From assembly GCF_000372885.1 (NCBI RefSeq), contig NZ_KB889967.1, forward strand, positions 2,104,655-2,168,654: 64,000 nucleotides of DNA. The letters run 5' to 3'. The notes below the pieces were generated by a model that was not told the origin of the DNA, did not search any database, and saw nothing but the letters and a program-made list of their open reading frames with translations. Origin of the DNA: Methyloversatilis thermotolerans. GTDB taxonomy: Bacteria; Pseudomonadota; Gammaproteobacteria; Burkholderiales; Rhodocyclaceae. Each line of letters opens with the position of its first letter. Within the stretch, counting starts at the first letter, position 1. A program made the translations under genes and the position numbers. Below, piece by piece: positions 42,373-57,764 of the stretch.

Positions 42373-43761
42373 TTGAGGCGTCTGACTGACCATCGAGTTT
42401 TCCGGCCCTTGCCGCTCGCGATCATTTCCGCAGGCGCCCTTCTGTGTGCATCGGCAAATGCCCAGACCCCGGGAAACTGGCCGCTCGACCGACAGGTCGA
42501 TGAGGCTTTCCAGCAGGTCCTGCGCGCGCCAGCCAACATGGAAGCCGGCTTGAACTACGCCCGCCTGCTCGTGCAGGACGGCAATTACGAAGGTGGCATC
42601 GCCGCGATGGAGCGCCTGCTGCTCGATCCGGCCGCGCACCCGGCCGTGCGCCTGGAACTGGCGGTGCTGTACTACCGTCTGGGCTCCTACGCCATGGCGG
42701 AAAGCCTGCTCGTTCACGCGCTGGAGAACCCGGAACTGACCGGTGCATACCGCACCCAGGCCGAAGCCCTGCTGCGTGACACCCGCGAACGCAACCAGAT
42801 TTCCCAACTGGATGGCTCGGTGATGATCGGTCTGCGCGTGCAGAGCAATCCCGCGGCGCGCACCGATCGGGACACCGTGCTGGCCGGTGGTCTGCCGGTG
42901 GCCGTGCCCGGTCCGCTCAAGCCGCATTCCGACACCGACGTGCAGGCGACGCTGCGTCTGGATCACCGTTACGACCTGGGCACCCAGAACGAGGCGGCCA
43001 TCGTCAGTTCGCTGGTGGCGCAGGCCGTGAAGTACAGCTCCTCGTCCGGATCGCAGCTGAGCGTCGGCCAGACCGACCCGTACAACTACGTGCTGGCGGA
43101 GGCCACCAGCGGCATCCGCTTCAAGCCTTCGGCTGTCGGCGCGCCCGGTCTCACGCTGCGGCCGCACCTGATTCTGGGTGGCATCCAGTCCCAGGGCCAC
43201 AAGCTGCTGGACATTTTCGGCGCAGGCCTGGATGTCGCATACGTCATCGACGAGCGCACGCGCATCGATGCCGGCTACGAATACCGCCAGTTCGACTACG
43301 CCACCCGTATCGACGTGCCGAACGCCAACCAGCTCGGTGGCCCCGACAATCTGTTCCGCGTGCGGCTGAGCCGCGAGCTCAGCCCGGGATCGGTGCTCAG
43401 CGGCGAACTGCGCAGCCGCTTCCGTCGCACGGACCGTGATTTCTACGACTACGACGCCCATGAAGGCCGGGTCACCTATGCCCTGAGCTACGCCAACCCC
43501 TTTGTCGAGGGTGCCGGGTTCTGGACCACGTCGGTGTGGGGCGGTGTGCTGCAGCGGCACTACGACGCCGCCGATCCGTCGGTGGACCCGTCGAAGCGGC
43601 GGCGCGACACCGAATGGCGACTGGGCGTGGGCAATACCTTTGCGCTCACGACGGCCTGGTCGGTGCTGGTTCAGCTCGAGCGCATCGAAACCGACGCCAA
43701 TCTGCCCAATTACCGCAACAAGAATTCGTCGCTGTTCGGCGCCGTCAATTACCGCTTCTGA
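42373..43761 (+). CDS. TPR plus beta-barrel outer-membrane protein
   Basis: The 462-aa protein starts at TTG (42373) with GAGGAA well placed upstream. It has a signal peptide ending near SANAQ, a TPR-like periplasmic part (AGLNYARLLVQDGNYEGG, then LAVLYYRLGSYAMAESLL; residues 45-130), and a C-terminal barrel of about 300 residues with alternating strands ending SSLFGAVNYRF. The terminal Phe is the outer-membrane insertion signal. This architecture resembles surface-assembly modifiers/DUF560-like porins. It is followed by a FecR-domain gene and is probably coexpressed with it. Substrate unknown. Confidence 0.78.
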   Translation: MRRLTDHRVFRPLPLAIISAGALLCASANAQTPGNWPLDRQVDEAFQQVLRAPANMEAGLNYARLLVQDGNYEGGIAAMERLLLDPAAHPAVRLELAVLYYRLGSYAMAESLLVHALENPELTGAYRTQAEALLRDTRERNQISQLDGSVMIGLRVQSNPAARTDRDTVLAGGLPVAVPGPLKPHSDTDVQATLRLDHRYDLGTQNEAAIVSSLVAQAVKYSSSSGSQLSVGQTDPYNYVLAEATSGIRFKPSAVGAPGLTLRPHLILGGIQSQGHKLLDIFGAGLDVAYVIDERTRIDAGYEYRQFDYATRIDVPNANQLGGPDNLFRVRLSRELSPGSVLSGELRSRFRRTDRDFYDYDAHEGRVTYALSYANPFVEGAGFWTTSVWGGVLQRHYDAADPSVDPSKRRRDTEWRLGVGNTFALTTAWSVLVQLERIETDANLPNYRNKNSSLFGAVNYRF

Positions 43762-43836: not shown

Positions 43837-44817
43837 ATGACCCCGCCGATTTCCAAGGACTGGTGGATCGCCGCCGCCCTGACCGGTGCCACCCTGCCCG
43901 CCGCCCACGCGCAGACCGCGCCGGCCCCCCGAGCCGGCATCGTGTCCGCGATCACCGCGAGCGCCCCGGCGACCGCCAACAAGAAGACCGTGGTGGTCGG
44001 AGACAGCGTCCAGCCCGGCGAAACGCTGCGCTCCGGGCCGAACGGCCAGTTGCACGTGCTGTTCCTGGACCAGTCGTCGGTGACCATGGGGCCCGATACG
44101 GAACTGGTGATCGACACCTTCAACTATGACCCGGCCACCCGGCAGGGCGCAATCAAGCTGCGGCTGAATCAGGGACTGGTGCGCGTCGTCGGCGGTCACA
44201 TCAGCAAGAACACCGCGACCGCCATCATCACGGACGTCGGCAGGGTGGAAATCCGCGGTGGCATCTCCCTGATCCAGTATGTGCCCACCTTCCCGAAGCC
44301 GGAGGCTAAAGCGCTTAATGTGGGCCCCGCCATAGGCTCCCAAGCCCCCGGTCTGTCGACGGTATTCATGTTTGGTCAGCAGCAGCGGGTCGTCGGGGTC
44401 GCCGTCTCCGATGGCGGAAACTCGTCGAACGAGCAGCGGGTCGTCCGGGTCGACGATGACGGAAACTCGTCGAACGTCGCGGTCATCACGCGACCGGGTT
44501 TCGGTTCGACCATCAGCGGCAGTGGCGCTGCTCCCAGCGAGCCGACCCGTGTTCCGATCAATCAGCTCAACGGCATGCTGAACAGCCTGGAAACCTCGCC
44601 GACCGGTGGCAACCAGGGCAGCAACCCCAACCCGCCGCCTGCCCCCCCCGAAAACCTGATCAGTACGGGCAACTCGGGCGGCACGGGCGGCGGCAGCCCG
44701 GGCGTTGGGTTGACCCCGGACCGTGTGCAGACTTCCGTCGACCGGAACGTCAATGCCAATCCGACGCAGACTCTGCAGAACCTGCTCGGGACCGGGCTGA
44801 CGGTCATCGCTTCCTGA
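43837..44817 (+). CDS. Exported FecR-domain protein
   Basis: The 326-aa protein has a signal peptide (residues 1-25) and a FecR domain: VGDSVQPGETLRSGPNGQLHV, FLDQSSVTMGPDTELVIDTF and a beta-rich TRQGAIKLRLNQGLVRVVGG. Outside FecI-FecR systems such domains are found in periplasmic or surface proteins with structural roles. A short internal tandem duplication (QQRVVGVAV...GGNSSN then EQRVVRVDDDGNSSN) and a Gly/Ser/Pro-rich tail follow. It lies 75 bp after the barrel gene. No sigma factor is nearby, so a Fec-type signalling role is unlikely. Confidence 0.82.
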   Translation: MTPPISKDWWIAAALTGATLPAAHAQTAPAPRAGIVSAITASAPATANKKTVVVGDSVQPGETLRSGPNGQLHVLFLDQSSVTMGPDTELVIDTFNYDPATRQGAIKLRLNQGLVRVVGGHISKNTATAIITDVGRVEIRGGISLIQYVPTFPKPEAKALNVGPAIGSQAPGLSTVFMFGQQQRVVGVAVSDGGNSSNEQRVVRVDDDGNSSNVAVITRPGFGSTISGSGAAPSEPTRVPINQLNGMLNSLETSPTGGNQGSNPNPPPAPPENLISTGNSGGTGGGSPGVGLTPDRVQTSVDRNVNANPTQTLQNLLGTGLTVIAS

Positions 44818-44901: not shown

Positions 44902-46794
44902 ATGCGCGTCCTGTTTGTTTCCAATTACGCCCACCTGCCGGACATCGTCGGCGGATTGCAGACCACCACCCACGACCTGTGTCTGGCCATCAAGGCCATT
45001 GGCGCCGAGGCGGCGGTGCTGTGCGGACGGCTTCCGGCCGAACAGCCTGACGTCGAGCAGCCGGCGAGCGGTGACGAAAGCCTCGGCTACCTCGTCCTGC
45101 GCGCCGATGCGCCGGAACAGGCGCTGCCCATGGCCGCCGCGGCCTGGGGGGCCGACGTCATCGTCGTGCAGAACGGCCACGCGCTGGCGCCCATGGTGCT
45201 GGCCAGCCTCAAGACCGGTCGCCCCACGGCGGTCTATCTGCACAACGTCGAGACGCACCAGCTCGGCGGCCATCTCGCGCCCCACCCTTCTTTGCTGTTC
45301 CTTGCGAATTCGGCCTTTACGGCAAGGCGCTGGCGCACGCTGTACGGCATCGACTGCGCAGTCATTCCGCCGGTGGTGGCGGCCGAGTCCTATGTGAGCG
45401 GACAGACCGGCGACAAGGTGCTGTTCGTCAATCCGACGCCGATCAAGGGGGTCGAAACCCTGTTCTCGCTGGCGGCGGCCTGCCCGGAACTGCCTTTCCT
45501 CGTGATGGAGAGCTGGCACATCGACCCGCACTGGCGCGCCTATTGCCTCGACCGGGCGGCCCGGCTGGGCAATATCGAATGGTGTGGCCCGATGCGCGAC
45601 ATGCGCGAGGTATTCGCCCGCACGCGGGTGCTGCTGATGCCCTCGGTATGGGAAGAATCCTTCGGCCGCACGGTGATCGAGGCCCAGCTCAACGGTCTGC
45701 CGGTGCTGGCCAGCAACCGCGGCGCGCTGCCCGATCTGGTCGGCAACGGCGGTTTCGTGCTCGCGCCAGAGGCACCGGTGTCCGACTGGGCGCTGGCCCT
45801 GCGCCATCTGTACGACCCGGTGCTCAGCGCCGCGCAGCGCGAAGCCGCCCGGCGGCAGGCGACCAGCCATGCCCTGTCCACGCCGCTCATCGTCGGCGAA
45901 CTGCTGACCTTGCTGGCCGCACACATCAGCCGGTCCGCGAGCGTCGAGCCCGCCGCCCCGCGCCCGGCTGCCAGCGTGCCCGACCGGACCCTGTCCGCCG
46001 CGGACTCCGCGCGGCTGCCGCTGCCGCAGCCGATGCGGGAAGTGATGCCGCGTTTTCCGCGGCGCGAGGACTGCCGGTTCTACCACTCCTGCGATCTGGA
46101 TGACGGCAGCGCGGTGACCGGAGAGTGGGATCTGAGACGGGATCCCTTCGGCTATCTCGGGGACGTCTGCGTGACCGGCCAGTCCGTGCTGGAAATCGGT
46201 CCGGCGAGCGGCTTTCTGTCCTTCTGCATGGAGATGGCCGGAGCGACCGTCACCTGCGTCGAACCGCCGATGTCGCACCTGTGGGATATGGTGCCGCTCG
46301 AAGGATTCGACACGCCCGGCTGGCGGGAAACCTTCAGCGAACAGATCGAACGGGTGCGCAATTCGTTCTGGTATCTGCACCGGCAGCACGGCTCGCGCGT
46401 CCGGGTGTTCGAAGCGGATCCGTACGAACTGGCGCCCGGTTTCGGTCCGTTCGACATGGGCGTGCTGGCCTCCGTACTGCTGCATTGCCGCCGTCCATTT
46501 GATCTGCTGCAGAGTGTGGCGGAGCGGGTCCGCCGTACGGTGGTGGTGACCGAGCTGTACGACCCGGCACTGGGCGAGGCACCGCTGTGCCGCTTGCTGC
46601 CGCACGCTGGCGGTGATCAGGTGCACACCTGGTGGCAATTCACGCCGCAGTTCTTCGTTTCGGCGCTGGGTACGATGGGTTTCACCGATTGCCGCGTGAG
46701 CTTCCACTCCCAGAAACAACCTGCCGAAAACAGGGAAGTGTCGATGTTTTCCGTCGTAGCGAGCCGGCCGGCATCGGGCGGCTCACCGACCTGA
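44902..46794 (+). CDS. Fusion of GT4-type glycosyltransferase and methyltransferase
   Basis: Residues 1-350 of this 630-aa protein are a GT-B fold glycosyltransferase of family 4: NYAHLPDIVGGLQTTTHDL at the N-terminus, VLFVNPTPIKGVETLF, and VLLMPSVWEESFGRTVIEAQ with the nucleotide-sugar-binding Glu region, then NRGALPDLVGNGG. After a Pro/Ala linker, residues 380-630 are a SAM methyltransferase with VLEIGPASGFLSFCMEMAG and ATVTCVEPPMS. The fused enzyme probably adds a sugar and methylates it or a nearby sugar. It is the first of four plus-strand or convergent glycan genes; the next begins 13 bp later. Confidence 0.86.
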   Translation: MRVLFVSNYAHLPDIVGGLQTTTHDLCLAIKAIGAEAAVLCGRLPAEQPDVEQPASGDESLGYLVLRADAPEQALPMAAAAWGADVIVVQNGHALAPMVLASLKTGRPTAVYLHNVETHQLGGHLAPHPSLLFLANSAFTARRWRTLYGIDCAVIPPVVAAESYVSGQTGDKVLFVNPTPIKGVETLFSLAAACPELPFLVMESWHIDPHWRAYCLDRAARLGNIEWCGPMRDMREVFARTRVLLMPSVWEESFGRTVIEAQLNGLPVLASNRGALPDLVGNGGFVLAPEAPVSDWALALRHLYDPVLSAAQREAARRQATSHALSTPLIVGELLTLLAAHISRSASVEPAAPRPAASVPDRTLSAADSARLPLPQPMREVMPRFPRREDCRFYHSCDLDDGSAVTGEWDLRRDPFGYLGDVCVTGQSVLEIGPASGFLSFCMEMAGATVTCVEPPMSHLWDMVPLEGFDTPGWRETFSEQIERVRNSFWYLHRQHGSRVRVFEADPYELAPGFGPFDMGVLASVLLHCRRPFDLLQSVAERVRRTVVVTELYDPALGEAPLCRLLPHAGGDQVHTWWQFTPQFFVSALGTMGFTDCRVSFHSQKQPAENREVSMFSVVASRPASGGSPT

Positions 46795-46807: not shown

Positions 46808-49800
46808 GTGAATGCGACGGATCGGGTCCGGCAAGCCTGGCGGCATTTCGCCGACGGCGACCGGCCAGCCGCCCTGCGCTGTGCGCAGCAGGCGGTCGCC
46901 GACGACGCCGGGCCATCGGCTGCGGCCGCGCTCGGCTATTTTCTGCTCGATGCCAACCAGCTCGACGCTGCGGCTGAGGTGCTGGGTCCGGCGCTGCGCT
47001 ACGCACCCCATCACGCGCCGCTGCACTGGTATGCCGGCCTGCTGCACCAGCGGCGCGGTGAAACCGCGCAGGCGATCGATGCGCTGCGCCGCGCCTGCCA
47101 GCTGGACGAGCGCCTTGATGAAGCGGCGACAACGCTGGCCTGGCTGCTGCAGGACGCCGGTGAGCTGACCGAGGCCCTGCACTGGGCGGCAAAGGCGCTG
47201 CAGGCGTCGCGCCAGCCACCGCGTCTGCTGCAGTTCGGCTGGCTGCTGCAGCGGCTCGGCCATCTCGCGGAAGCCGTCGACCTGTACCAAGAAGCCGTTG
47301 CCGGCTTTCCCTTCGACGCGCCGGAACAGCGCACGCTGCATCTGCACCTGGCGCAGTGCCACGCGGCACTGCACCGTCCGGACCAGGCCGGTCAGGCGCT
47401 TGAACGCGGGCTCGAACGTCTCCCCTTCGATGCCGAACTGATCACCGAACGGGTCCTCCACGAGTGGGCACAGGGCCGCCACGCTCAGGCCATCGGACTG
47501 GCCCGTGCCCAGATGGACGCGCATCCCGAGCGACCGGATGCCTGGTATCTGCTGGGCGTGCTGCAGCAACGCGCGGGCGATCTCGACGCCGCGGACCGCT
47601 GTTTCGCCGAAGTCCAGCAGCGCGATCCGGCGAACGCCGACGCGCTGCTGCGTCGCGCGCAGATCCAGTCCGGCTGGGGACGCGCCGAAGCGACGCTCTG
47701 GCTGGCTGATCTCGCATTGCAGCAGCGGCCGGACTCGTTGCCGGCGCGGGCGCTGAAGGCGCAGGCGCTGCTCGATCTGAAGCGCACGGACGATGCACGC
47801 CGGCTGCTGCTGTCACTATTGCGCACGAAGCCGGAGGAGAGCGAGCTCTGGCGGCTGCTTGCGGCGGTGCATGGCCAGCGACGCCGGGGCGGCCTCGCGC
47901 GTCGTGCGCTGGCGCGCGCCCTGCGCGTCGATGCGAACAATGTGACCGCGCTGCGCGCGCTGGGCTGGCTGGCGCTCGAACAGGGCGATCTGCCGGTGGC
48001 GAAGCGGGCGATCGAGCGGGCGCTCGAATGCCAGCCGGGTGATGCCGCCGTGCAGACACAGGCTGCCTTCGTGCTGGCCGCCGCAAACGAACTGGCCCGC
48101 GCGGCGGATCTGGCGCTGGTCGCGGTCGCGCACGACCCGAAGCAGGCCGATGCCTGGCGCGCGCTGGCGGAAGTGCGGCTGCGGCAGCGCCGGCTGAGCG
48201 AAGCCGAAACCGCCATCGAAACGGCCCTGCTGCTGCTGCCGGATCGTAGCGACAGCCTGCGGCAACTGGGCTGGATACTGCTGGCGGACCGACGGCCCGG
48301 TCAGGCGCTGCTCGCCTTCCTGCGCATCCGTACCATGAAGCCGGACGATGTGCTGCCCTTGCTGGAAATGGCCGAAGCCTGTCTGCGCATGGGGGATACC
48401 GATCGCGGTCTGGCGGCGGTGGATGAGGTACTCGGGCGACAGCCGGGCCATGCAGCGGCCCGGTTGATGAAGGCGCGTCTGCTCGCCGAAGGCGGGACCG
48501 CGCAGGCGGATGAACTGCATCGGGCACGCGAACTGTGTCGCGGACTGTTGAACGAACATCGGGACGTAGCGGGCGCAGCGGGTGTGCTGGCCCGTCTTGC
48601 GGCGCGTGCGGTGCCCGGTGCGGAGGCCGCGCTGAAGTGGATGCCGGTCGCGGCGCGGCAGGCCGTGCTGCGCGACGCATTGAGCGTGGCCGTCGCGCGC
48701 CACGGCCACGACGGTCTGAATCGTCTGTGTGCGATCGCCGGGGACCTCTGCCCACTCGATCCCTGGATGGCTGCTGCCGCGCTCTACGCGGCCACCCTGT
48801 CCGATACATCGACGCCGGCTGAACTGGCGCGCGATGCGCGCGATCTGTACCGCATGCTCAAGCTGCGCGGTGGCCTGAACAGCACGCCGCGACCGCCCGC
48901 ATTGCATGGCTACGCCAGACCTCCGCGCATCGCCTACGTCGCCGGGCAACAGCATCAAAGCCTGCTGCGCCGCGTGCTGGCGGCGCACGACGGCGAGCGG
49001 GCGGAAGTGTTCCTGTTCAGCAATCTGCCCCAGCCCGGCCTGCCTGCGCACATCCATTGCGAGCCGCTGCGCGCCGACACGCTGGCGGCGGTGTGCGCGG
49101 CCAACCGCATCGACGTGTTGATCGATGCGGGCGGTCTGCATCCGTTCGAAGGCCAGTTCGAACTGCTGGAAGCCTATGCCCGCCGCGTGGCGCCGCTGCA
49201 GGTGGGCTGGCTCGGATGTCCGGTGACCGGCGGCGGGCTGTTCGATGCGCTGCTGACCGACGAGCGGGCGGTGCCGGTCGGGCACGAAGCCTTCCACGAA
49301 GAGGCGCTGTGGCGGATCGAAGGCGGCCAGTGGTGCTGGGATCCGCCGGTCCATGCACCGCAGCCTCTATCGCCACCCGTGCTGCGCACTGGCGCCGTCA
49401 CCTTCGGTGTGACTGCGCGCGGACTGCGCATGACAGAGGCCTGTATCGACATGTGGGCGCAGGTGCTTGTTGCCACGCCGCACTCGTCCATCCGTTTCAT
49501 CGGCGAAGTCGCCGACGACGGACCTCAGCGCGCGCACATCCTGGCCGCGCTGGGCACCCGCGGTGTTGCCCCGTTGCGCGTGGCCTTCGACCCGCCGCGC
49601 AGCTACAACGGACTGCTCGACTGGCTGCAGCAGATCGATCTGCTGCTCGACAGCTTTCCTGGCAATGGCGGCCTGAGTCTGCTCGATCCGCTGTGGATGG
49701 GCGTGCCGGTGATCAGCCGGGCGGGCGACTGGGCCGGTGCCCGTCAGGGCCTGTCGGTGCTGGCATCACTCGGACTCGATGCCTGGGTGGCCGACAGTGC

Positions 49801-51997
49801 TGAAGCTTTTGTCGGCATCGCCACTGCGCTGGCCGGGGATGTCGAGGCGCTCAGGCAGCATCGCGGTACGCTGCGCGCCCGCATGGCCGCCTCACCGCTG
49901 CTCGACGGGCGTCGCGTCGCGCGCCAGATCGAACAGGCATGCGAACGCTTCGTCGACAGTGTGCAGGCCAGTGCGCAGACGCACGACCCGAAGGCGCAGA
50001 TACGTGCCCGCGCCCGCCGTGCGCTGCATGCCTGGCTGGACAAGGCTGCGGCCATTGATCTGCCGGAAGTTCCGGCCCGCACGACACCGGATCTGTCGGT
50101 CATCGTGGTGCTCTACAAGCAGGCCGGCCTGACGCGCACGACGCTGCAGGCGCTGGCCGACCAGCGTGGCGTGGCCTTCGAAACGGTCATCGTGGACAAC
50201 GCCTCGGACGACGAAACCGGCGCGCTGCTGCAGCGCGTGCGCGGCGCGCACATCGTGCGCAATGCGGAAAACACGGGTTTTCTGCGTGCCGCCAATCAGG
50301 CCGCAGCACTGGCGCGCGGCCGTCATCTGGTGTTCCTGAACAGCGATGCCATTTTGCAGCAGGGCGCGCTGGCGGCGGCGCTGGCACACCTCGATGCCGA
50401 ACCGGATACCGGCGTGCTCGGTGGCCGCATCGTGCTGACCGCGGGCGGCCTGCAGGAAGCGGGCAACACGATTTTCCGCGACGGCTCGACGCTGGGCATC
50501 GGCCGTGGCGAAGACCCGTTCTGTCCCGCAGCGATGGCCCGTCGCGCCACCGACTATGTGTCCGGCGTTTTCATGGCGGTGCGTACGCCGCTGTGGCACA
50601 TGCTGGGTGGATTCGACGAACGCTACGCACCGGCCTATTACGAAGACACGGATTTCTGCCTGCGCGTCTGGCGTGCAGGTTTCCGCGTCGTGTATGAGCC
50701 GGCCGTGCTGGTCGAACATCTGGAATGGGGCAGTGCCACGGGCGACGAGGTGCCGCAGCAGATGTGCGAGAACCGGCGTCGTTTCGTCGAAGCGCATGAC
50801 GAGTGGCTGCGCGGGCAAGGCCGGCCGGCGCCACAGCCACTGGACGGTGACCGCTGGCACTCCCCGGAGGACCACCCGCGCCGCCCGCGCGTGCTCATCC
50901 TCGACAACGAAGTGCCGCACATGGTGAAGGGCGGCGGGCTGCCGCGTGCGCGCCTCATGCTGCACGCGCTGCGCGACTGGCCGGTGACTTTCTATCCGCT
51001 GTGGCAGGAAGCCGATGACTGGCGGGACGTGTATGCCTCGCTGCCGCCGTGCACTGAAGTCGCGCTGGGCTGGGGCATGGGCCGGCTCGAATCCTTTCTC
51101 GAACTGCGTCGCGACGTGTATGACGTGATGGTGGTAAGCCGGCCACCCAACCTGAAGGCGCTGTCGTCGCTGCGCCAGCGCCGGCCGGATCTTTTCGCCG
51201 GGATTCGTCTGATCTATGACGCCGAAGCACTGTTCGCCCTGCGTGAAATTCCGGAGGCGGCAGTGAAGGGGCGGCCGATGACGCGGGCGGCGGCGCAGGC
51301 GCGACTGGCCGGCGAGATCGCGCTGGCGAACGGCGTCGATCAGGTGTGGGTGGTGTCTGCACGGGACGGCGCGCTGTTCCAGGCGGCAGGTCATCGCGTG
51401 CGGGTACTGAGTCACGCGATTCCGGTGCGCCGGTCGGTGCCGGGGCCGCTGCAGCGCAGCGGTCTGCTGTTCGTCGGCGCGATGCACCCCGGTACGCCGA
51501 ACGAGGACGGGCTGGTCTGGTTCGTCACGGAAGTCATGCCCCGCCTGCGCGCGCTGCTGCCGCAGGCGCCGGTACTGTCGGTGGTGGGCATGAATCATTC
51601 GGGCCGGGTGAGTGCCCTCGCCTGCGGCGATGTGCACATACTCGGTCCGCAGGCCGCGCTAGAGCCCTTCTATGACCGTGCGCGCGTATTCATCGCGCCG
51701 GTGCGGTTTTCCGGCGGCGTGCCGCTCAAGGTGATCGAGGCGGCCGCACAGGGCGTGCCGGTTGTCGCTTCGGCCGTGCTGCTGCGACAGCTCGGCTGGA
51801 CCGAGGGCATCGACATCCAGTCCGGGCGCGACGCCGATGCATTCGCGCGCGGCATCGTGCGACTGCTGAAGGATGACGCGCTGTGGGTGAGGCAGCAGCA
51901 GGCCGCATGGGCACAGTGCCAGGCGCACCATGATCCCGAACGCTTTGGCCGGGATCTGCGCAGCGCGCTGGACGGGGCAGGCGCGGAGGCGCCATGA
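46808..51997 (+). CDS. Giant TPR / OGT-like / GT2 / GT4 multidomain glycosyltransferase (1729 aa)
   Basis: Residues 1-680 are an almost continuous series of TPR helices (for example AAALGYFLLDANQLDAAAEV, LLGVLQQRAGDLDAADRCF). Residues 700-1050 resemble the C-terminal lobe of SPINDLY/O-GlcNAc transferase: IAYVAGQQHQSLLRRVL, LDSFPGNGGLSLLDPLWMGV and a final RVARQIEQACERFV helix; the usual HPGTT-like motif is changed to VTGGG. Residues 1095-1340 are a GT2 domain (LSVIVVLYKQAGL, VDNASDDETG, EDTDFCLRVWRAGF). Residues 1356-1729 are GT4-like (LFVGAMHPGTPNEDGLVWF, PVRFSGGVPLKVIEAAAQGV). It starts at GTG 46808 and overlaps the next gene by 4 bp. Protein O-glycosylation is inferred from the TPR/OGT part. 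Confidence 0.85.
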   Translation: MNATDRVRQAWRHFADGDRPAALRCAQQAVADDAGPSAAAALGYFLLDANQLDAAAEVLGPALRYAPHHAPLHWYAGLLHQRRGETAQAIDALRRACQLDERLDEAATTLAWLLQDAGELTEALHWAAKALQASRQPPRLLQFGWLLQRLGHLAEAVDLYQEAVAGFPFDAPEQRTLHLHLAQCHAALHRPDQAGQALERGLERLPFDAELITERVLHEWAQGRHAQAIGLARAQMDAHPERPDAWYLLGVLQQRAGDLDAADRCFAEVQQRDPANADALLRRAQIQSGWGRAEATLWLADLALQQRPDSLPARALKAQALLDLKRTDDARRLLLSLLRTKPEESELWRLLAAVHGQRRRGGLARRALARALRVDANNVTALRALGWLALEQGDLPVAKRAIERALECQPGDAAVQTQAAFVLAAANELARAADLALVAVAHDPKQADAWRALAEVRLRQRRLSEAETAIETALLLLPDRSDSLRQLGWILLADRRPGQALLAFLRIRTMKPDDVLPLLEMAEACLRMGDTDRGLAAVDEVLGRQPGHAAARLMKARLLAEGGTAQADELHRARELCRGLLNEHRDVAGAAGVLARLAARAVPGAEAALKWMPVAARQAVLRDALSVAVARHGHDGLNRLCAIAGDLCPLDPWMAAAALYAATLSDTSTPAELARDARDLYRMLKLRGGLNSTPRPPALHGYARPPRIAYVAGQQHQSLLRRVLAAHDGERAEVFLFSNLPQPGLPAHIHCEPLRADTLAAVCAANRIDVLIDAGGLHPFEGQFELLEAYARRVAPLQVGWLGCPVTGGGLFDALLTDERAVPVGHEAFHEEALWRIEGGQWCWDPPVHAPQPLSPPVLRTGAVTFGVTARGLRMTEACIDMWAQVLVATPHSSIRFIGEVADDGPQRAHILAALGTRGVAPLRVAFDPPRSYNGLLDWLQQIDLLLDSFPGNGGLSLLDPLWMGVPVISRAGDWAGARQGLSVLASLGLDAWVADSAEAFVGIATALAGDVEALRQHRGTLRARMAASPLLDGRRVARQIEQACERFVDSVQASAQTHDPKAQIRARARRALHAWLDKAAAIDLPEVPARTTPDLSVIVVLYKQAGLTRTTLQALADQRGVAFETVIVDNASDDETGALLQRVRGAHIVRNAENTGFLRAANQAAALARGRHLVFLNSDAILQQGALAAALAHLDAEPDTGVLGGRIVLTAGGLQEAGNTIFRDGSTLGIGRGEDPFCPAAMARRATDYVSGVFMAVRTPLWHMLGGFDERYAPAYYEDTDFCLRVWRAGFRVVYEPAVLVEHLEWGSATGDEVPQQMCENRRRFVEAHDEWLRGQGRPAPQPLDGDRWHSPEDHPRRPRVLILDNEVPHMVKGGGLPRARLMLHALRDWPVTFYPLWQEADDWRDVYASLPPCTEVALGWGMGRLESFLELRRDVYDVMVVSRPPNLKALSSLRQRRPDLFAGIRLIYDAEALFALREIPEAAVKGRPMTRAAAQARLAGEIALANGVDQVWVVSARDGALFQAAGHRVRVLSHAIPVRRSVPGPLQRSGLLFVGAMHPGTPNEDGLVWFVTEVMPRLRALLPQAPVLSVVGMNHSGRVSALACGDVHILGPQAALEPFYDRARVFIAPVRFSGGVPLKVIEAAAQGVPVVASAVLLRQLGWTEGIDIQSGRDADAFARGIVRLLKDDALWVRQQQAAWAQCQAHHDPERFGRDLRSALDGAGAEAP

Positions 51998-52839
51998 CCG
52001 CGCCGCACCCGCTCGAAGAAGAGGCGCTTCGCCGTTTCCGCCGCCTCATGGCCCGCGGCCAGCGGGATGCGGCAGAAGCGTGTCTGCAGGATGTACTGGT
52101 GCGCGAACCCAATCTGCCGGGCGTGCATGTCGCGCTGACACGGCTGCGTTGGCCCGGCCCCGATTACGTGTTCTGGCTGGCCTGGTTTCACGCGCAGCTC
52201 GCGCCGCGCCTGTATCTGGAAATCGGTGTCGAAAAGGGTACTTCGCTGGCTCTGGCAGGACCGTCCACCCGGGTGGTGGGCGTCGATCCTGCGCCCATCG
52301 GTGACCCCCTGCAGCAGTGTCGTGCGGACGCCCGGCTTTATCGCCAGACCAGTGCCGAGTTCTTCGCGGCGGTGCCCGCGGAGAGCGGTCTGGAACCGGG
52401 TGGATTCGATCTTGCCTTCATCGATGGCGATCACCGTTTCGAAACCGTGCTGGACGATTTCATCGCTGCCGAACGTCATGCAGCGCCCGGCGCGGTACTG
52501 CTGCTGCACGACACGCTGCCACTGAATGCCCTGACCGCGGGCCGCGAACGGCGCACCGGTTTCTATACCGGCGATGGATGGAAGATCGTGCCCTGCCTGC
52601 GTGGGCTGCGACCGGATCTGTGCATCATGACCGTGCCGGCGGCGCCGACCGGTCTGACCGTGGTGACCGGGCTCGATCCATCCAGCCACGTGCTGCTCGA
52701 ACGCCTGCCATGGATTCGCGAAACCTATGCGGCCTTGCCGCCGGACTGCGCCGTGCGGGCGCCACAGCCGCTGCTCGCGCTCGGGGTCAACGATACGGAG
52801 TGGATGGCGCAGTGGCTGCGGGCGGCACGCGGGCGATGA
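51994..52839 (+). CDS. Class I SAM-dependent methyltransferase (Methyltransf_24-like)
   Basis: The 281-aa protein has a short helical N-terminal part (TPR-like) and a methyltransferase core: LYLEIGVEKGTSLALAGPST, VVGVDPAPIG, and GFDLAFIDGDHRFETVLDDF with PGAVLLLHDTLPLN. The ALIDGDH-type motif is typical of Methyltransf_24/CmcI-like O-methyltransferases acting on sugars or small molecules. Its ATG overlaps the stop of the giant transferase gene, so it is translated with it. Its last 53 bp overlap the end of the convergent next gene. Confidence 0.82.
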   Translation: MTAPHPLEEEALRRFRRLMARGQRDAAEACLQDVLVREPNLPGVHVALTRLRWPGPDYVFWLAWFHAQLAPRLYLEIGVEKGTSLALAGPSTRVVGVDPAPIGDPLQQCRADARLYRQTSAEFFAAVPAESGLEPGGFDLAFIDGDHRFETVLDDFIAAERHAAPGAVLLLHDTLPLNALTAGRERRTGFYTGDGWKIVPCLRGLRPDLCIMTVPAAPTGLTVVTGLDPSSHVLLERLPWIRETYAALPPDCAVRAPQPLLALGVNDTEWMAQWLRAARGR

Positions 52840-53758
52840 CGCAGGCCAGGTCCCGCTGAAGCCGTCCGGACTGGAACAGGTCTTCTTCCGCCCTCAGCAG
52901 GCCGTGCAGCCAGGGCGCTGCATCCGCATGCATGAAGTTCTGCGCGATGCCGGCAAGAACCACCCGCAGCAGTGCCCCACAGTACGGACGGTGCGCCCGT
53001 ATCGTGAAGTGGCGTTCGAGCAGCGGCAACAGTTCCGACGAACGTACGGCTTCGGACGGGTCTACCGCAATGACTTCGTCGATCGCAGGCCGCCAGGGGC
53101 GCCCCTTGATCTGCCCGTCCGCCATCCTGCGCAGGTGATCGGGCAGCAGGTCGATCAGTTGTCCCATGTAATGCACCTGCGCATTCGAGCACTGGAAGCG
53201 GTCCGGGCCGACGTATTCGTCGAGGAAGAACCAGCCCCCTGGCGTCAGCAGTGCAGCGACGGAGGCATACAGGTTTTCGAGACTGGCGCAGTGGTGCACG
53301 CTCGCGATGCCCAGCACGGCGTCGAAACTGCCCGGCTCGAAACCGGGCTGGCCGAGCGGCAGACTGTTCATGTCCGCCTGGATGTAGCGCACCGCCACGC
53401 CGGCCGCCCGTGCGTCCGCGCGCGCTCGCTCGAGCGCGGCTGCCGACAGGTCGATGGCGACGATCTCATCGGCCTGTCGGGACCTGGCCAGTTCCAGGGC
53501 GTCGCTTCCCTGACCGCAGCCCAGAAGCAGCACGCGACGCAGCGGCAGGGGGCGATGCGCACCGACGATGCCGAAGAACCACTGCAGCGGCGTGACGGAC
53601 GGATGACCGCTCACCTGTTCGTTCACGCGCGCCTTCACGGCCGGAATGTGGGTCCAGTGCAGGCCCTGTTCCACCCATACCGCCGGGTCGCCCCAGACGG
53701 CGTCCAGGCGGTCGGCCAGAGCGGTGTCGATGTGTGCTTCTTGTGAGGTCGAGGTCAT
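52787..53758 (-). CDS. Class I SAM-dependent methyltransferase
   Basis: This 323-aa protein carries VLLLGCGQGSDALELARS (motif I, near residue 75), IVAIDLSAAALERARADA, and GSFDAVLGIASVHHCASLEN. The N-terminal PAVWVEQGLHWTHIP and the long C-terminal part with helix-rich composition are seen in methyltransferases of glycan and secondary-metabolite clusters. It starts the minus-strand half of the island's gene set (with four more genes upstream on that strand) and overlaps the previous gene tail-to-tail. Confidence 0.82.
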   Translation of the reverse strand: MTSTSQEAHIDTALADRLDAVWGDPAVWVEQGLHWTHIPAVKARVNEQVSGHPSVTPLQWFFGIVGAHRPLPLRRVLLLGCGQGSDALELARSRQADEIVAIDLSAAALERARADARAAGVAVRYIQADMNSLPLGQPGFEPGSFDAVLGIASVHHCASLENLYASVAALLTPGGWFFLDEYVGPDRFQCSNAQVHYMGQLIDLLPDHLRRMADGQIKGRPWRPAIDEVIAVDPSEAVRSSELLPLLERHFTIRAHRPYCGALLRVVLAGIAQNFMHADAAPWLHGLLRAEEDLFQSGRLQRDLACVIARVPPAATAPSTPYR

Positions 53759-53778: not shown

Positions 53779-54465
53779 CTACTGCTGCGGCTTGGCGTGG
53801 CCGGTGAGCGCCTCAAGGCGTGCACCGTCTTCCGACGCAGTGTGCGGTCGAAGGATGTCAGGATGGCCATGGCGCCGGCCATTCATGTAGCGTTCGAGCC
53901 GGTCGAGCATGCGCGCGGGATGCCGATCGACATTGGCCTCGTCCTTGACGAACACGGCGACGAAATCGTTCCAGATGTCGAGCCGCTGGAAGGTGGTGAA
54001 GGACTCCAGCAGGGCCGGCCGGTAACCCGATCGCATGCTCCAGCGCACGAGCGCTTCGCCTGCGTCGGGGTAGAAGCGCCAGCAGTCCACCGGGTAGCGG
54101 TGATAGTCGCCATTCGACGGCGCGTTCAGGTAGAACAGACCGCCGGGCTTCAGCACGCGCAGCACTTCATTGAACATGAGCCAGAACATTTCGATGTGCT
54201 CGAAACACGAACTGCTCACGACCGCGTCAGCGATGCCGTCGTCGAACGGCAGTCGGTAGGCGTCTTCCAGCACCACATCCACGCCACGACCGGCAGCGAA
54301 ATCCAGACCCAGATAGCGGGCACCCGCTGGCGCAACCTGACGCAGCGAACCGTTGATGTCCTGGGCGCCGATATCGAGGATCAGCGGCTGAGCGCCTTCG
54401 CCGCCAGCGCCGGAAAAATAGGTGGAAAAGAAGCGCATGCCGTTGTCCATCGCGCTCGGATGCAT
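53779..54465 (-). CDS. Class I SAM-dependent methyltransferase
   Basis: The 228-aa protein has LILDIGAQDINGSLRQV as motif I (Gly-rich but with QDIN instead of GTG), YLGLDFAAGRGVDVVLEDAY and ADAVVSSSCFEHIEMFWLM, then LKPGGLFYLNAPSNGDYHRYP. This is the Methyltransf_11/FkbM-neighbour type frequent in lipopolysaccharide and capsule loci. ATG at 54465 has AAGGAC upstream; the frame is open further but without homology. It lies 11 bp after the next upstream gene's stop. Confidence 0.83.
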   Translation of the reverse strand: MHPSAMDNGMRFFSTYFSGAGGEGAQPLILDIGAQDINGSLRQVAPAGARYLGLDFAAGRGVDVVLEDAYRLPFDDGIADAVVSSSCFEHIEMFWLMFNEVLRVLKPGGLFYLNAPSNGDYHRYPVDCWRFYPDAGEALVRWSMRSGYRPALLESFTTFQRLDIWNDFVAVFVKDEANVDRHPARMLDRLERYMNGRRHGHPDILRPHTASEDGARLEALTGHAKPQQ

Positions 54466-54475
54466 GGTTGTCCTT

Positions 54476-55552
54476 TCAGTCTGCGCGTCGCCGCAGCAGA
54501 ACGACATCCTGGGTGCCTGCCGTGCCCGGAATGATGTCGAGCACGTCGAACCATCGTGCCCACCGGGTCATGATGTAGTCGGGCGAATGCATCACGTTAC
54601 GGTAGTACTCGGCGTCGTCGATCACGGCCTGCAACTGGGCGTTGGCGCCCACGTCCAGAATGCCTGTCTCGTGCGTTTCGAGGTAGAGCGCAGGTGGCGT
54701 TCTGTAGAGAGCCATCTGCGGCAGCCCCTGCACCGACAGCAGCAGCAGGGCTTCGGGCTGCGTGATGCGCCACAGCTCTTCCAGCCAGGCGTCCTGCACC
54801 GCTTCGTCGAGATGGGTGAGCACGGACAGCCCGATCACCAGATCGAAGCTGCAGTCCGCAAACGGCGTGGGCGGCATCAGGTCAACGGCAAGGAAGCGGG
54901 CGCCTGGCAGTGAGTCCCTGCAGCAGGCGATGTTGTCGGCATCGATGTCGATACCTGTCACCGCCGGCGAAAGCAGCGACAGGTAGCGGCTGAGCCGGCC
55001 GGCGCCACAGCCCCAGTCCAGAATGGACCGGAAGGATGCGATCGGACGGTCGAAACGTTCATGCAGCAGATGTTCGTAATGCTTCACGATGGTCGCGCCG
55101 CCCAGCCTGAACGAGGGCAGGTTCGCGCTGCCGATGACACGCTCTATCTGATCCGGCGACGGCATGGCAGGTTCGCGTGCCGGGTCAGCCAGATACCAGG
55201 CCGTGCGGTAGGACAGGCGGTGTTCGCCGAACGGACCGGTCACGTTCAGGCGCACGAAGCCGTCCGGAAACAGCTCATCCCGGCCGGTCCGGCGATGCCG
55301 GCAGAAAAAGCGCGATGTCGCCGCATTCGGGATGTGGCCGAAAAAGTCGAGCAGGTCGGGCGATGGCAGGCTGCGATCGACCTGGTCGAAATCGGCACCG
55401 TTGATCAGGAAGCGCTGCCGCGCCGGATCGTCCCAGATCGACAGGGCCCAGCCGGACACGGTGATTTCTTCGTCGGTGACGACCACAGCATCCGGCATCC
55501 AGCGCAGATGCCGTGCTGTCGCAAGCTGGATGTCTGCGAAGTGAATGTTCAT
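54476..55552 (-). CDS. SAM-dependent methyltransferase with N-terminal extension
   Basis: The first 120 residues of this 358-aa protein (VTDEEITVSGWALSIWDDPA) form a beta-rich domain resembling extensions in glycan-modifying enzymes. The remainder is a methyltransferase: SILDWGCGAGRLSRYLS, VTGIDIDADNIACCRD, CSFDLVIGLSVLTHLDEAVQDAW. It ends with DVLDIIPGTAGTQDVVLLRR. The ATG at 55552 overlaps the stop of the WcbI-like gene by 4 bp (ATGA), so the minus-strand genes are translationally coupled. Confidence 0.83.
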   Translation of the reverse strand: MNIHFADIQLATARHLRWMPDAVVVTDEEITVSGWALSIWDDPARQRFLINGADFDQVDRSLPSPDLLDFFGHIPNAATSRFFCRHRRTGRDELFPDGFVRLNVTGPFGEHRLSYRTAWYLADPAREPAMPSPDQIERVIGSANLPSFRLGGATIVKHYEHLLHERFDRPIASFRSILDWGCGAGRLSRYLSLLSPAVTGIDIDADNIACCRDSLPGARFLAVDLMPPTPFADCSFDLVIGLSVLTHLDEAVQDAWLEELWRITQPEALLLLSVQGLPQMALYRTPPALYLETHETGILDVGANAQLQAVIDDAEYYRNVMHSPDYIMTRWARWFDVLDIIPGTAGTQDVVLLRRRAD

Positions 55553-56445
55553 GGCCGGACATGCTCGCGCAGGAAGCGTGCCGCGCGTTCGATGGCGGGC
55601 GCATGCCAGTCCGTGGTTTCCAGCCGGTGCGCGGCGTAGCACACATAGCTGCTGTCGATGAACTCATCCCAGCGGATGACGCGCTCGCCATGAACAATCT
55701 GCAGCGAAGCGGCAGGGTCTGCCGGGTCGAACTCTCCGGGCGCAGAACCGGGCAGGCCAGGATAGCTCGGCAGCAGGAACGAATACTTGCCCAGCCAGTC
55801 CTCTGGCATGCGCGCGCCGGGCAGCGGCTTGATGTTCACGCGTTCCAGCATCTGTTTTGCCAGTTCGAAAAGGATGCTCACCGCCGGGTGGTTCGGGCAG
55901 TGCATGAATGTCCGTTTCGCCGCAAAAATGTAGCGGCCATCGAACCCGAGCTGCGCGAAGCTCTCCAGCAGGGATCGCCCGTGGTGAACGAAGTCATCCG
56001 CATAACCCAGACCGGCGTAGATGAAGCGGTTGAACAGCGCGGGCACCCGCGATGCGGGCAGCCCGCACAGGTAGGCACCGGCGACGATGGCCGAGTGATA
56101 GTAGGACGCCACCGTTTCCAGATAACGGCCGTTGCACCGCAGGACGTTGATGTCCGGATGGAATCCGCCGAATATCACGGAAGGAATGGCGATGACCGAA
56201 CGCACCTGCGCAAGCAGATTGCGCAGCACTTCCTGCTCACCTGAGCCGGACAGGGCGTATTTGGGCAGGTGCACGAACATCGCGTCGACTTCGCTCGCCA
56301 GCGCCATCACGGCCTGCAGTGCCGGATCTTCGCTGTCCTGCACGTGTTCCAGCTGTATCGCCTCGAACAGGTGACCGGGTGCGAGCGCCTCGAGGCAGTC
56401 GATCAGCCCGCGTGACTGGCAGTTGCCAACGACTGCGATTCTCAT
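55549..56445 (-). CDS. WcbI-like polysaccharide biosynthesis protein
   Basis: The 298-aa protein starts [21 protein letters not shown], the signature GNCQ opening of the WcbI family, followed by FGGFHPDINVLR and PLPEDWLGKY-type segments. WcbI of Burkholderia binds CoA and is needed for capsule formation, and acetyl transfer is suspected. The gene overlaps its neighbours at both ends by 4 bp (ATGA). Its presence argues that the island makes or modifies a polysaccharide. Confidence 0.8.
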   Translation of the reverse strand: MRIAVVGNCQSRGLIDCLEALAPGHLFEAIQLEHVQDSEDPALQAVMALASEVDAMFVHLPKYALSGSGEQEVLRNLLAQVRSVIAIPSVIFGGFHPDINVLRCNGRYLETVASYYHSAIVAGAYLCGLPASRVPALFNRFIYAGLGYADDFVHHGRSLLESFAQLGFDGRYIFAAKRTFMHCPNHPAVSILFELAKQMLERVNIKPLPGARMPEDWLGKYSFLLPSYPGLPGSAPGEFDPADPAASLQIVHGERVIRWDEFIDSSYVCYAAHRLETTDWHAPAIERAARFLREHVRP

Positions 56446-57485
56446 GGCGCGTTCAGCATGTCTTCGTCGCACCACACCTCGTACCACTGGTCCCGTTCCG
56501 CCATCGAGGTGCGCGGTGCGGGCGCCGCCGGGGCAGGAGCGCCTTGGACGGGCGCCTCGGAAAGGTAGAGCCGGGTGAAGTACTCCACCACGTCATGCAC
56601 GCCCTCGGCGGTGATGTGACGCATGTCCGGCTGGAAGTAGCGCCCCATCGTGTGATGGCCGGCAACGCACTCATAGGACGGAAAGTAGGAGGCCAGATCG
56701 TCATCTCGCGTCACCATGTCGGCCACCACACGCAATGCCGCCTTGGTGTAGCTGTTGGACACCAGCACGTGGCGCGGCTCATAGGTCGCCGCGATCGATA
56801 CCGGCGATACGCTCAGCACCAGCTTCACCGATGGATTCAGCAGGCGCAGATTGCCAATCAGGCGGCGCAGGTCATCCACCATCTCCGGTACCGAAAAATT
56901 GTGGAAATGACAGGTCGCGCCGTCCTCCGGCTCGCCATGCACGCCGGGCGCCAGCGGGAATACGGCGCCATCCGCATCGGACACCCAGGCTTCGGTCATG
57001 CCCAGCGTGAACACGAATACATCGCACTGTTCGAACATCCGGCGCACCGCGGCCAGGTGCGATACACGGTCCGCCTGCAGATCATCGAGCGTGCTAAAGC
57101 CATTCGGCTCGACGTTGGGCCGGAACGGGTCGACGAAAGCATCATGCCAGCGCCAGACATGCTCGCGAGGCACGAACAGTCCGTAAGCGCGCTCGAAAAG
57201 CTGAAGCAGTTGCCGAACGGTATAGATGTTGCCGAAACGTGCCGGGTAGACGCCGAACTGGCGTTCTGGCGGTCCGCCTTCGGTGATCAGATAGTTGAAG
57301 CCCCGCGTAGGCAGAAGACGAGCCAGATGCTGGGCAAAGCAACTGCCCGCTGACACGATCCTGTCCGTCGCGTGGATCACGAGACCGTCGTGCCCGGCGG
57401 GAACCTGCGTCATATCGAACCCGGCAACACCAGCGGTACGCGACCAGAAGGCGGTGTCCGGCAGGTCGGTGTAGGGATGCGGCAT
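56442..57485 (-). CDS. GSCFA-domain protein
   Basis: This 347-aa protein has the name-giving GSCFA motif in [15 protein letters not shown] near residue 45, then [11 protein letters not shown] and [21 protein letters not shown], ending in an SGNH-hydrolase-like [20 protein letters not shown]. The fold is that of SGNH/GDSL esterases, so acyl removal or transfer on a glycan is plausible. [10 protein letters not shown] at 57485 is the likely start by homology, but the ribosome site is weak. It heads the minus-strand gene set of the island; 57486-57756 upstream has no other gene. Confidence 0.8.
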
Positions 57486-57764
57486 TGCGATGAGCAGGAC
57501 AGTTTGGTCGAGGGCCGCCAAGGCTACATCGAATGGGGCGGTTTTTCGAGAAAGGCTGAGGGTGGCGGGACCTTGGCCCCGAAGAGCTTTCGACAGGGCA
57601 ACAGCTATCGACGTGACGGAGGGCCCGACCGCGGAAATTCGCAGGACGCCCGACCGAGCGCCCCTTCCTGCTCGAGCAGGATCCCGGGTGTGCAAGTTTC
57701 GCTGTATGGCACCACGCCCGGCGCAAGTCAGAGAAGACCTGACCCAGATTCGGGTCCGGAAAAC

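Follow-up and report, generated by a model that had tools for sequence, protein, structure and literature searches.

A single open reading frame of Methyloversatilis thermotolerans encodes a protein of 1729 residues that joins a TPR array, a GT41 (OGT/SPINDLY) region, a GT2 domain and a GT4 domain, and lies in a six-gene core conserved at loci from Beta- and Alphaproteobacteria. The frame is located in a stretch of 64,000 nucleotides, here termed the window, and its product is referred to as the giant protein. The GT41 region matches GT41 structures at the level of the fold and has a changed donor site, whereas the checked motifs of the GT2 and GT4 domains are retained. Our preferred explanation, held with somewhat less than even confidence, is that the giant protein is a cytosolic, single-polypeptide glycan-assembly enzyme serving a single exported protein, for which the FecR-domain protein of the same cluster is the likeliest candidate. 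Positions are given in Table 1.

Table 1. Location of the giant protein, its modules and altered loops, and the neighbouring genes (positions in the window; residues are those of the giant protein)
Feature	Position	Strand	Evidence or remark
Giant glycosyltransferase, 1729 aa, TPR-GT41-GT2-GT4	46808..51997	+	ORF, Pfam, PDB phmmer, homologue alignment
TPR array (matches ~13-607) then further helices, residues 1-690	46808..48877	+	TPR searches, AF2 helices 567-687
GT41 (OGT/SPINDLY) GT-B region, residues 691-1060	48878..49987	+	phmmer, Foldseek, VIA-align
GVTARGLR loop, residues 867-874	49406..49429	+	R874 at the GT41 catalytic Lys position; A870 at the SPY N661 position
GNGGLS loop, residues 952-957	49661..49678	+	19 GT41 controls mostly [YF]-x-G-x-[T/other]-T there
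GT2 domain, residues 1093-1340, motifs kept (D1130, N[SN]D1180, E1279-D1280, H1304)	50084..50827	+	
GT4 GT-B domain, residues 1358-1710 (KVIEA, E1644)	50879..51937	+	
Outer-membrane protein (OMP), N-terminal TPRs and predicted 14-strand beta-barrel	42373..43761	+	Partner in 11/11 loci
FecR-domain protein, conserved M[ST]PPISKDWW-type N terminus, Ser/Thr/Gly/Pro-rich tail; proposed acceptor	43837..44817	+	
GT4-methyltransferase fusion	44902..46794	+	Two separate matches in 3/10 full-length loci
Methyltransf_24 methyltransferase (MT24)	51994..52839	+	Start overlaps giant stop by 4 bp
SAM methyltransferase, Methyltransf_25 (MT25)	52787..53758	-	Partner in 11/11 loci
SAM methyltransferase, Methyltransf_11	53779..54507	-	10/11 loci
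SAM methyltransferase	54476..55642	-	8/11 fetched stretches
WcbI-family polysaccharide biosynthesis enzyme	55549..56487	-	Pfam, locus comparison
GSCFA-family protein	56442..57695	-	Pfam, locus comparison

The presence of four modules in one frame, proposed in a first-pass annotation, was borne out by Pfam, phmmer and ten full-length members. The frame is uninterrupted and starts with GTG. Pfam identified TPR families, GT41 at residues 875–1039 (E 8e-16), GT2 at 1094–1306 (E 1e-18) and GT4 at 1552–1689 (E 3e-21); nothing in NCBIfam scored above cut-off. In phmmer searches of PDB sequences, residues 759–1045 matched SPINDLY (E 2e-36) and residues 693–1054 a Thermobaculum OGT (E 8e-34). The whole fusion was without a match in this set, the GT4 part alone had none at E 0.01, and the GT2 part alone gave weak matches only, the best being GalNAc-transferase 2 (E 4.5e-5). 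Pooled TPR matches from several searches span about residues 13–607 and residues 567–687 are helical in the AF2 model, so the earlier figure of roughly 680 residues suits the helical part as a whole. Beyond the TPR region the model adopts the two-lobed GT-B fold of GT41, which at a mean pLDDT of 58 (modest confidence) is a fold-level match. All 50 listed Foldseek rows were GT41 enzymes, as were the first 45 of 50 listed VIA-align structures (Z 18.0–21.7), which mostly cover model positions 135–476, equivalent to residues 694–1035; the GT-B fold suspected earlier for this region was therefore not refuted. The GT2 assignment combines the Pfam match with acidic motifs in the alignment of members, and the GT4 assignment combines it with a KVIEA/Glu motif. 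All domains showed dN/dS values of 0.12–0.34 within the genus, indicating purifying selection.

A search for the same architecture elsewhere, as the first-pass annotation had advised, gave at least ten full-length members, including that of the window, and one copy on an Azospirillum plasmid. The full-length members belong to Methyloversatilis and related Betaproteobacteria and are 54–77 % identical to the giant protein of the window (Methyloversatilis discipulorum MAG_31, L036, was treated as the same as G003 and counted once). Full-length conservation across ten contigs, the window's among them, indicates that the protein is neither a chance frame nor an assembly chimera, and an artefact of this kind was ruled out. 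The Azospirillum copy, from a plasmid collection in which 11 records matched, has a frame change in its GT4 part and was annotated in two pieces; statements on its residues refer to the annotated 1510-aa piece only. Counting the window's genome wherever it was drawn, the four-module protein was present in 5 of 13 genomes from the genus, 6 of 199 from the family and 2 of 399 from the order (both at an E limit of 1e-50), while the window's own genome was the one match among 369 from the class (1e-55) and among 398 from the phylum (1e-90); these draws overlap, and diverged fusions could fall short of the E limits. A contig search added HGW-Betaproteobacteria-16 and a Hydrogenophaga MAG among the matches listed. 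In the listed titles and abstract openings of open-licence papers, nothing was found on a TPR-GT41-GT2-GT4 protein or its cluster, which is weak evidence of absence.

The genes for the OMP, FecR-domain protein, GT4 enzyme, giant protein, MT24 and MT25 occurred together in all 11 loci. The first five are on one strand in the window, and the core is constant while its outer flanks vary between species. The FecR gene is located two genes upstream of the giant gene and its product has a signal-peptide-like start. In a search of 399 genomes of the order, the sole strong match to this protein starting at residue 1, besides the window's, was in G770 (E 9e-41), which was also the sole other genome with the giant protein in a like draw of 399, although the two draws may differ. 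As the giant gene adjoins exported-protein and outer-membrane-barrel genes in eleven copies, the neighbourhood suggests that the giant protein builds a sugar chain on the exported protein. The FecR tail has 19–36 Ser/Thr among 103–121 residues in the ten full-length loci, and O-linkage is likelier than N-linkage because each tail has just 0–3 N-x-S/T sequons.

From this arrangement the following pathway may be proposed. The TPR superhelix and GT41 lobe would bind the unfolded acceptor ahead of export, and the lobe, its Lys exchanged for Arg, would put the first sugar on Ser/Thr or at least position the acceptor for it. The GT2 domain and then the GT4 domain would lengthen the glycan, which the neighbouring GT4 enzyme and methyltransferases would extend and methylate. 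The acceptor would pass the inner membrane by means of its signal peptide and reach the surface aided by the TPR-barrel protein. More speculatively, the locus may represent an undescribed surface-glycoprotein cassette of Beta- and Alphaproteobacteria. A single chain would then dock an exported FecR protein that has an outer-membrane barrel of its own, initiate the glycan with a GT41 variant using Arg where Lys is canonical, and lengthen it through the GT2 and GT4 domains.

The overall logic appears comparable to that of FlmG or HMW1A/B/C. In the HMW1 system an exoprotein (HMW1A), an outer-membrane pore (HMW1B) and a cytosolic GT41 enzyme (HMW1C) act jointly, and HMW1C was reported alone to link sugar to protein and to join hexoses (PMC3983070). 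An exported protein, a predicted outer-membrane barrel and a GT41-type enzyme are likewise clustered around the giant gene, but with a FecR domain instead of a TPS domain, TPRs on the OMP and added GT2 and GT4 domains on the enzyme; neither the OMP nor the FecR-domain protein had a TpsA or TpsB match in Pfam. FlmG, the Caulobacter flagellin glycosyltransferase, binds its acceptor flagellins through a TPR domain (PMC7591256) and similarly joins TPRs and a glycosyltransferase in one cytosolic protein, but has one such module where the giant protein has three, and the genomic partners of the latter are FecR and a barrel rather than flagellins.

The GT41 proteins (OGT, SPINDLY and bacterial TPR-GT41 enzymes) were the best PDB sequence and fold matches of the giant protein and likewise have a catalytic GT-B region of two lobes behind a TPR array; the giant protein differs in an Arg for the catalytic Lys, in loss of the donor-site Tyr/Phe and Asn/Gln residues and in the fused GT2 and GT4 domains. 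An altered substrate-site motif, VTGGG, had been noted earlier. The GT41 site is indeed changed, but VTGGG itself is confined to this copy; the nine remaining members have VTAGG (3), GTSGG (2), GTAGG, STAGG, GPAGG and GSAGG. More telling are the replacements of Lys by Arg (R874), Tyr by Gly (G952) and Asn by Ala (A870) and a shortened loop after H716. Alignment to the catalytic Lys of known GT41 proteins (hOGT K842, SPY K665), suggested in the first-pass annotation, went against a conserved site: all 11 members have Arg there, and each of the 19 other GT41 homologues has Lys. These controls were 19 ORFs from 16 loci already gathered (L121 contributing three and L013 two), leaving out near-duplicates and matches with fewer than 150 aligned query residues. 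The equivalent of SPY Y744 is Gly or Ala in members and aromatic in 17 of 19 controls; that of N661 is Ala or Val in members and Asn or Gln in all 19. Members have Leu at the T748 equivalent and Leu or Trp at that of H728 (His in Azospirillum only), and the S496 equivalent is probably replaced too (the alignment is uncertain). Since the controls themselves vary at the T747 (Gly in 13/19) and T748 (Thr in 13/19) positions, G955 and L956 are weak evidence; judged from the alignment, the firm differences are those at the Lys, the Asn/Gln, the aromatic residue and the last Thr. The N-lobe active-site loop right after H716 is about four residues shorter. H716 is invariant and is paired by HMMER, but not by MAFFT, with the HP-motif His of Thermobaculum OGT, which we take to be SPY H495 and hOGT H558 (pLDDT below 50 at 714–716). 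On this comparison the donor site is changed. The nucleotide-sugar residues, proposed earlier as a check on each domain, largely fail in the GT41 lobe, while the checked motifs of GT2 and GT4 are kept. R874 and the changed Y744 and T748 equivalents were counted against our preferred explanation.

These replacements bear on a possible, if doubtful, alternative in which the giant protein is still an assembly enzyme but its GT41 lobe is dead and, together with the TPRs, only forms a scaffold that docks the acceptor. The first sugar would then come from the neighbouring GT4 enzyme, present in the cluster at 11 of 11 loci, or from the GT2 domain. In SPY, K665 is essential, the K665A mutant being inactive, and activity is weak in Y744A, T748A and S496A (PMC9715652), which together with the fixed replacements and the shorter loop favours a dead site. 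N661A, however, is nearly harmless. The passages of the literature consulted report no Lys-to-Arg mutant. In an NGT related to HMW1C the diphosphate is handled by Lys440 and Asn520 (PMC10507012). In the giant protein Arg could still stabilise a diphosphate. The altered loops are invariant across the ten full-length members and half retained in Azospirillum, beyond what a dead site would need, and the GT41 lobe has a dN/dS of 0.20–0.28 (four pairs of Methyloversatilis genomes), about equal to that of the TPRs. A decaying pseudo-domain was ruled out by these dN/dS values and the invariant loops. For the earlier proposal that one polypeptide both starts and extends a protein glycan, the anatomy and the FecR and barrel genes in 11 of 11 loci are favourable, but the start is not secured because the K665, Y744 and T748 equivalents are replaced.

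The AF2 model of the OMP (mean pLDDT 58) comprises three helix pairs and 14 strands. Its best Foldseek matches, although weak (TM 0.29–0.33), were PelB and BcsC, which are TPR-barrel polysaccharide exporters. This match, the only moderate Ser/Thr richness of the FecR tail and the modest confidence of both AF2 models were likewise counted against our preferred explanation. The locus might instead make and export a methylated exopolysaccharide or surface glycan, the acceptor of the giant protein being bound to lipid or glycan rather than protein, and WcbI- and GSCFA-family proteins are encoded nearby. Several plasmid proteins, with annotations of rhamnan synthesis F or plain glycosyltransferase, also contain GT2-GT4 cassettes. 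We consider this unlikely: Pfam recognised no synthase, flippase, polymerase or initiating polyprenyl-phosphate transferase in ten scanned proteins (the giant protein and nine neighbours), TPR plus GT41 is a protein-modifying arrangement in the characterised cases compared, and a FecR protein with a conserved N terminus is present at all 11 loci. In type XI secretion (Slam/DUF560) proteins such as NilB, about 140 residues with TPRs precede a beta-barrel (PMC8406197), a layout that the OMP may share, but Pfam at E 0.01 assigned neither DUF560 to the OMP nor a TbpB-type family to the FecR protein.

Elsewhere, TPR-GT41 enzymes may glycosylate flagellins or type IV pilins. Such a role of the giant protein is very improbable despite 10 flagellin-N matches in the window's genome, a sensor-regulator pair (presumably pilS/pilR) adjoining the cluster and a separate TPR-GT41 protein (L025) beside flagellin-like genes in G002, because no flagellin or pilin gene was seen in the core cluster of the examined loci, the core stays where the outer flanks differ, and the Azospirillum copy is plasmid-borne near nickel-transport and torA genes.

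The giant protein was also compared with other multidomain glycosyltransferases. The SRRP/Fap1 pathway, to which dGT1 belongs, uses a Gram-positive export route. Like the giant protein, dGT1 holds several activities in one polypeptide, two transferases that lengthen the glycan of an exported protein, but it is without a TPR or GT41 part (PMC5063993). In enterobacterial flagellin islands, GT41 is joined to another enzyme domain in a glycan-modification cluster, but that domain is a methyltransferase (PMC4875605) instead of GT2 and GT4. Known precedents are HMW1C, in which one protein begins and lengthens a short glycan, and dGT1, which has two extending transferases on one chain. If the proposal is correct, a docking array with GT41-type, GT2 and GT4 modules in one chain would go further, as a compact assembly line for protein glycans that might find use in glycoengineering. 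With Arg fixed at the lysine position, the family would also serve as a natural experiment on whether that lysine is indispensable in GT41 or the lobe has become a scaffold, and the conserved cassette supplies a concrete candidate acceptor.

A minus-strand ORF of 1584 aa (41965–46719) lies over three of the cluster genes. It was regarded as a high-GC artefact because its GC3 is lower (0.68 against 0.80–0.85 for the OMP, FecR, GT4-methyltransferase and giant genes, all on the plus strand) and these four genes have homologues. The C-terminal GT2-GT4 cassette of the giant protein was also found in 14 loci of 12 further genomes of the class. None of these 14 ORFs matched its TPR or GT41 segment at E 1e-6, and the N-termini of the six that were scanned include PIG-L, sulfotransferase and further glycosyltransferase domains.

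The giant, a protein of 1729 residues, is encoded by an ORF with a GTG start and 1729 open codons. The first-pass annotation had described it as joining TPR, OGT-like, GT2 and GT4 modules, and the Pfam, TPR and phmmer matches together indicate that all four are present as first described. TPR coverage, pooled from several searches, spanned residues ~13–607. The GT41 N-lobe was added by phmmer against PDB sequences, with matches to Arabidopsis SPINDLY (SPY; residues 759–1045, E 2e-36) and Thermobaculum OGT (residues 693–1054, E 8e-34). An AlphaFold2 model of residues 560–1090, built from the window's sequence aligned to those of L035, L036 and L037 (three fetched loci), was of modest confidence (pLDDT 58, pTM 0.40). 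All 50 Foldseek matches listed for this model were GT41 enzymes (best E 2e-17, query TM 0.32–0.40), led by Thermobaculum OGT 5djs (a K341M mutant according to the entry title), SPINDLY, Xanthomonas OGT (XcOGT) and human OGT. With VIA-align, the first 45 of 50 matches listed were GT41 structures (Z 18.0–21.7), mostly over model positions 135–476, equivalent to residues 694–1035; rmsd was mostly 7–10 Å (maximum 13.8), which probably reflects lobes badly placed relative to each other in the model. These matches indicate that the region of residues 694–1035 is a GT41-type GT-B fold, as had been proposed for the OGT-like lobe.

Features of the giant and its gene neighbourhood in the window
Feature	Position	Strand	Remark
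OMP (outer-membrane protein, predicted barrel with TPRs)	42373-43761	+
FecR (FecR-domain protein)	43837-44817	+
GT4-methyltransferase	44902-46794	+
Giant	46808-51997	+
TPR, several families	residues of giant		Pfam
Glyco_transf_41	residues 875-1039		Pfam E 8e-16
Glyco_tranf_2_3	residues 1094-1306		Pfam E 1e-18
Glycos_transf_2	residues 1097-1211		Pfam E 3e-19
Glyco_trans_1_4	residues 1552-1689		Pfam E 3e-21
Methyltransferase	51994-52839	+	4-bp overlap with giant
Three methyltransferases, WcbI, GSCFA	downstream of 51994-52839 gene	-

The OGT region was aligned to known GT41 catalytic positions; SPY residue numbers in this alignment agree with those of PMC9715652, and HMMER placed no gaps in the catalytic loop. 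SPY N661, A664 and K665 corresponded to A870, L873 and R874 of the giant, SPY Y744, T747, T748 and T749 to G952, G955, L956 and S957, and SPY H728 to L936. The XcOGT Lys also fell on R874, and the human OGT HTT stretch, numbered H920-T921-T922 in the Thermobaculum OGT paper (PMC4683255), fell on G955-L956-S957. A870, L873, R874 and G952–S957 were invariant in all ten full-length giants, while position 936 was Leu in all but two, which have Trp. The Azospirillum giant keeps R874, N953, G954, G955 and L956 and changes A870 to Val, L873 to Phe, G952 to Ala, S957 to Cys and L936 to His. The controls were 19 other GT41 homologues, taken from 16 loci that had been fetched within the same order: the equivalent of 874 was Lys and that of 957 Thr in every case, that of 870 was Asn (17) or Gln (2), and that of 952 was aromatic in 17. 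These controls weaken the argument from 955 and 956, with Gly at 955 in 13/19 and Thr at 956 in just 13/19. The Lys is named the key catalytic residue in the Thermobaculum OGT study (PMC4683255); for SPY, PMC9715652 reports K665A as dead, Y744A, T748A and S496A as much reduced, and N661A and H728A as nearly dispensable. H716, a candidate for the N-lobe His, was invariant; HMMER paired it with the His of the Thermobaculum OGT HP motif, whereas MAFFT placed it elsewhere, and the loop here is ~four residues shorter. The altered substrate-site motif proposed earlier, VTGGG, is a variable spot, with six different spellings across the other nine full-length giants.

Mean pairwise identity among the ten full-length giants was highest for GT2 (75 %), followed by GT4 (71–73 %), GT41 (66 %) and the TPRs (57 %). 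By a counting method applied to four pairs of Methyloversatilis genomes, dN/dS was 0.20–0.28 for GT41, 0.19–0.26 for TPR, 0.12–0.19 for GT2, 0.17–0.23 for GT4 and 0.24–0.34 for the linker (561–700). The identity and dN/dS of the GT41 lobe reject its being a relic; on these sequence comparisons it is maintained, perhaps as a catalyst that uses Arg, perhaps as a docking body. We tentatively favour a protein-glycan system whose GT41 lobe is active or at least positions the acceptor; a version of it in which that lobe is dead is rather unlikely, though a serious alternative. In GT2, D1130, D1180 (in N[SN]D), E1279, D1280, D1282 and H1304 were invariant in the ten full-length members, as were E1473, K1641 and E1644 in GT4; the roles of these motif residues are presumed from family knowledge. 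The Azospirillum 1510-aa piece, which stops short of E1644, keeps D1130, D1180, E1279, D1280 and H1304.

A search for the same architecture in other genomes, as had been suggested, recovered full-length homologues in several genera. These comprised five of 13 genomes of the betaproteobacterial genus Methyloversatilis (including the window's), two more genera of its family, at 57 % and 54 % identity, a different family within the order (58 %) and, among the matches listed, the MAGs HGW-Betaproteobacteria-16 (63 %) and Hydrogenophaga sp. bin-2 (62 %). The eleventh giant, 49 % identical over GT41–GT4, lies with its cluster on a plasmid of the alphaproteobacterium Azospirillum thermophilum; its gene is annotated in two pieces, a 1510-aa TPR protein and a short glycosyltransferase ORF, with a frame change between them. 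The GT2–GT4 half was found alone in wider genome draws. A class draw (369 genomes) gave 14 such loci in 12 genomes other than the window's; all 14 fetched ORFs matched GT2 and GT4, and at E 1e-6 none had a match to the TPR or the GT41 segment. The N-terminal parts of six that were Pfam-scanned include PIG-L with GT2, sulfotransferase and further GT domains. A phylum draw added seven genomes (two shared with the class draw) with matches limited to GT2–GT4. We infer from these sequences that the fusion arose when a widespread GT2–GT4 cassette became attached to a TPR-GT41 protein, and that it was kept thereafter.

OMP, FecR, GT4, the giant and the methyltransferases MT24 and MT25 were present in all 11 loci, although the G010 stretch holds just part of the OMP gene. 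The methyltransferase MT11 was present in ten and MTc in eight, with the Hydrogenophaga contig ending near the MTc site. WcbI was of the window's type in four loci and of a second type in four others. GT4 and methyltransferase were fused in seven of the ten full-length loci and separate in three, and in Azospirillum OMP, FecR and GT4 lie on the strand opposite the giant. The core seems to travel as one block, since the outer flanks differ among loci. A Methyltransf_24 gene of ~284 aa lies between MT25 and MT11 in 6/11 loci (L022:12451-13305; the other five copies are 74–97 % identical to it) and is absent from the window's cluster (53759-53778). An antisense ORF overlying OMP, FecR and GT4-methyltransferase (41965-46719, minus strand, 1584 aa) was read as a high-GC artefact (GC3 0.68).

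The FecR N terminus in the ten full-length loci reads M[ST]PP, I/F, S/Y, K/R, D, W/L, W/F, ending AAAL (MAPADSKDW in Azospirillum). It is signal-peptide-like and, for a signal peptide, conserved to an unusual degree between distant species; this suggests that a dedicated partner recognises it. After it come the FecR domain, which is conserved, and a variable tail rich in Ser, Thr, Gly and Pro. Across 399 genomes of the order, FecR was matched from residue 1 just in the window's genome and G770, which has a giant; matches in four others were weaker and began at residue 23 or later. The OMP model (pLDDT 58) shows 14 strands together with three pairs of TPR helices, and PelB and BcsC are its first Foldseek matches. 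In its predicted TPR and barrel layout OMP resembles the Slam/type XI secretion proteins described in PMC8406197; no Pfam match to DUF560 was seen in it. A polysaccharide system, in place of protein glycosylation, is an improbable reading of the cluster.

In the favoured protein-glycan system, TPR docking, the GT41 lobe, two extending GTs and methylation would precede export of FecR. The cluster combines features of several described systems. In FlmG a TPR domain can bind the acceptor in a cytosolic protein glycosyltransferase (PMC7591256). In HMW1A/B/C an exported protein, its outer-membrane pore and a GT41 enzyme act together before export, and one enzyme both starts and extends the glycan (PMC3983070). 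Two GT domains on one chain extend a protein-bound glycan in dGT1 (PMC5063993), and GT41 is fused to methyltransferase domains in enterobacterial flagellin islands (PMC4875605). Flagellin or pilin glycosylation by the giant is very improbable. By titles and abstract starts, none of the papers listed in the literature searches dealt with the four-module chain, the fixed Lys-to-Arg GT41 variant or the FecR and outer-membrane-barrel partners; each module, and multi-GT proteins, are already known.

The giant is the sole GT41 match in the window's genome, which has ten flagellin-N matches, four of them in tandem on a separate contig (C4:404-3819). A congener without the giant (G002) carries a separate 730-aa TPR-GT41 with the canonical Lys adjoining flagellin-like genes (L025:6041-8233). 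At two further loci (L121 and L122), TPR-GT41 genes that keep the canonical Lys lie close to genes for type IV pilin-like proteins, whose N termini contain FTLIEL; this placement hints at GT41-type pilin glycosylation in this order.
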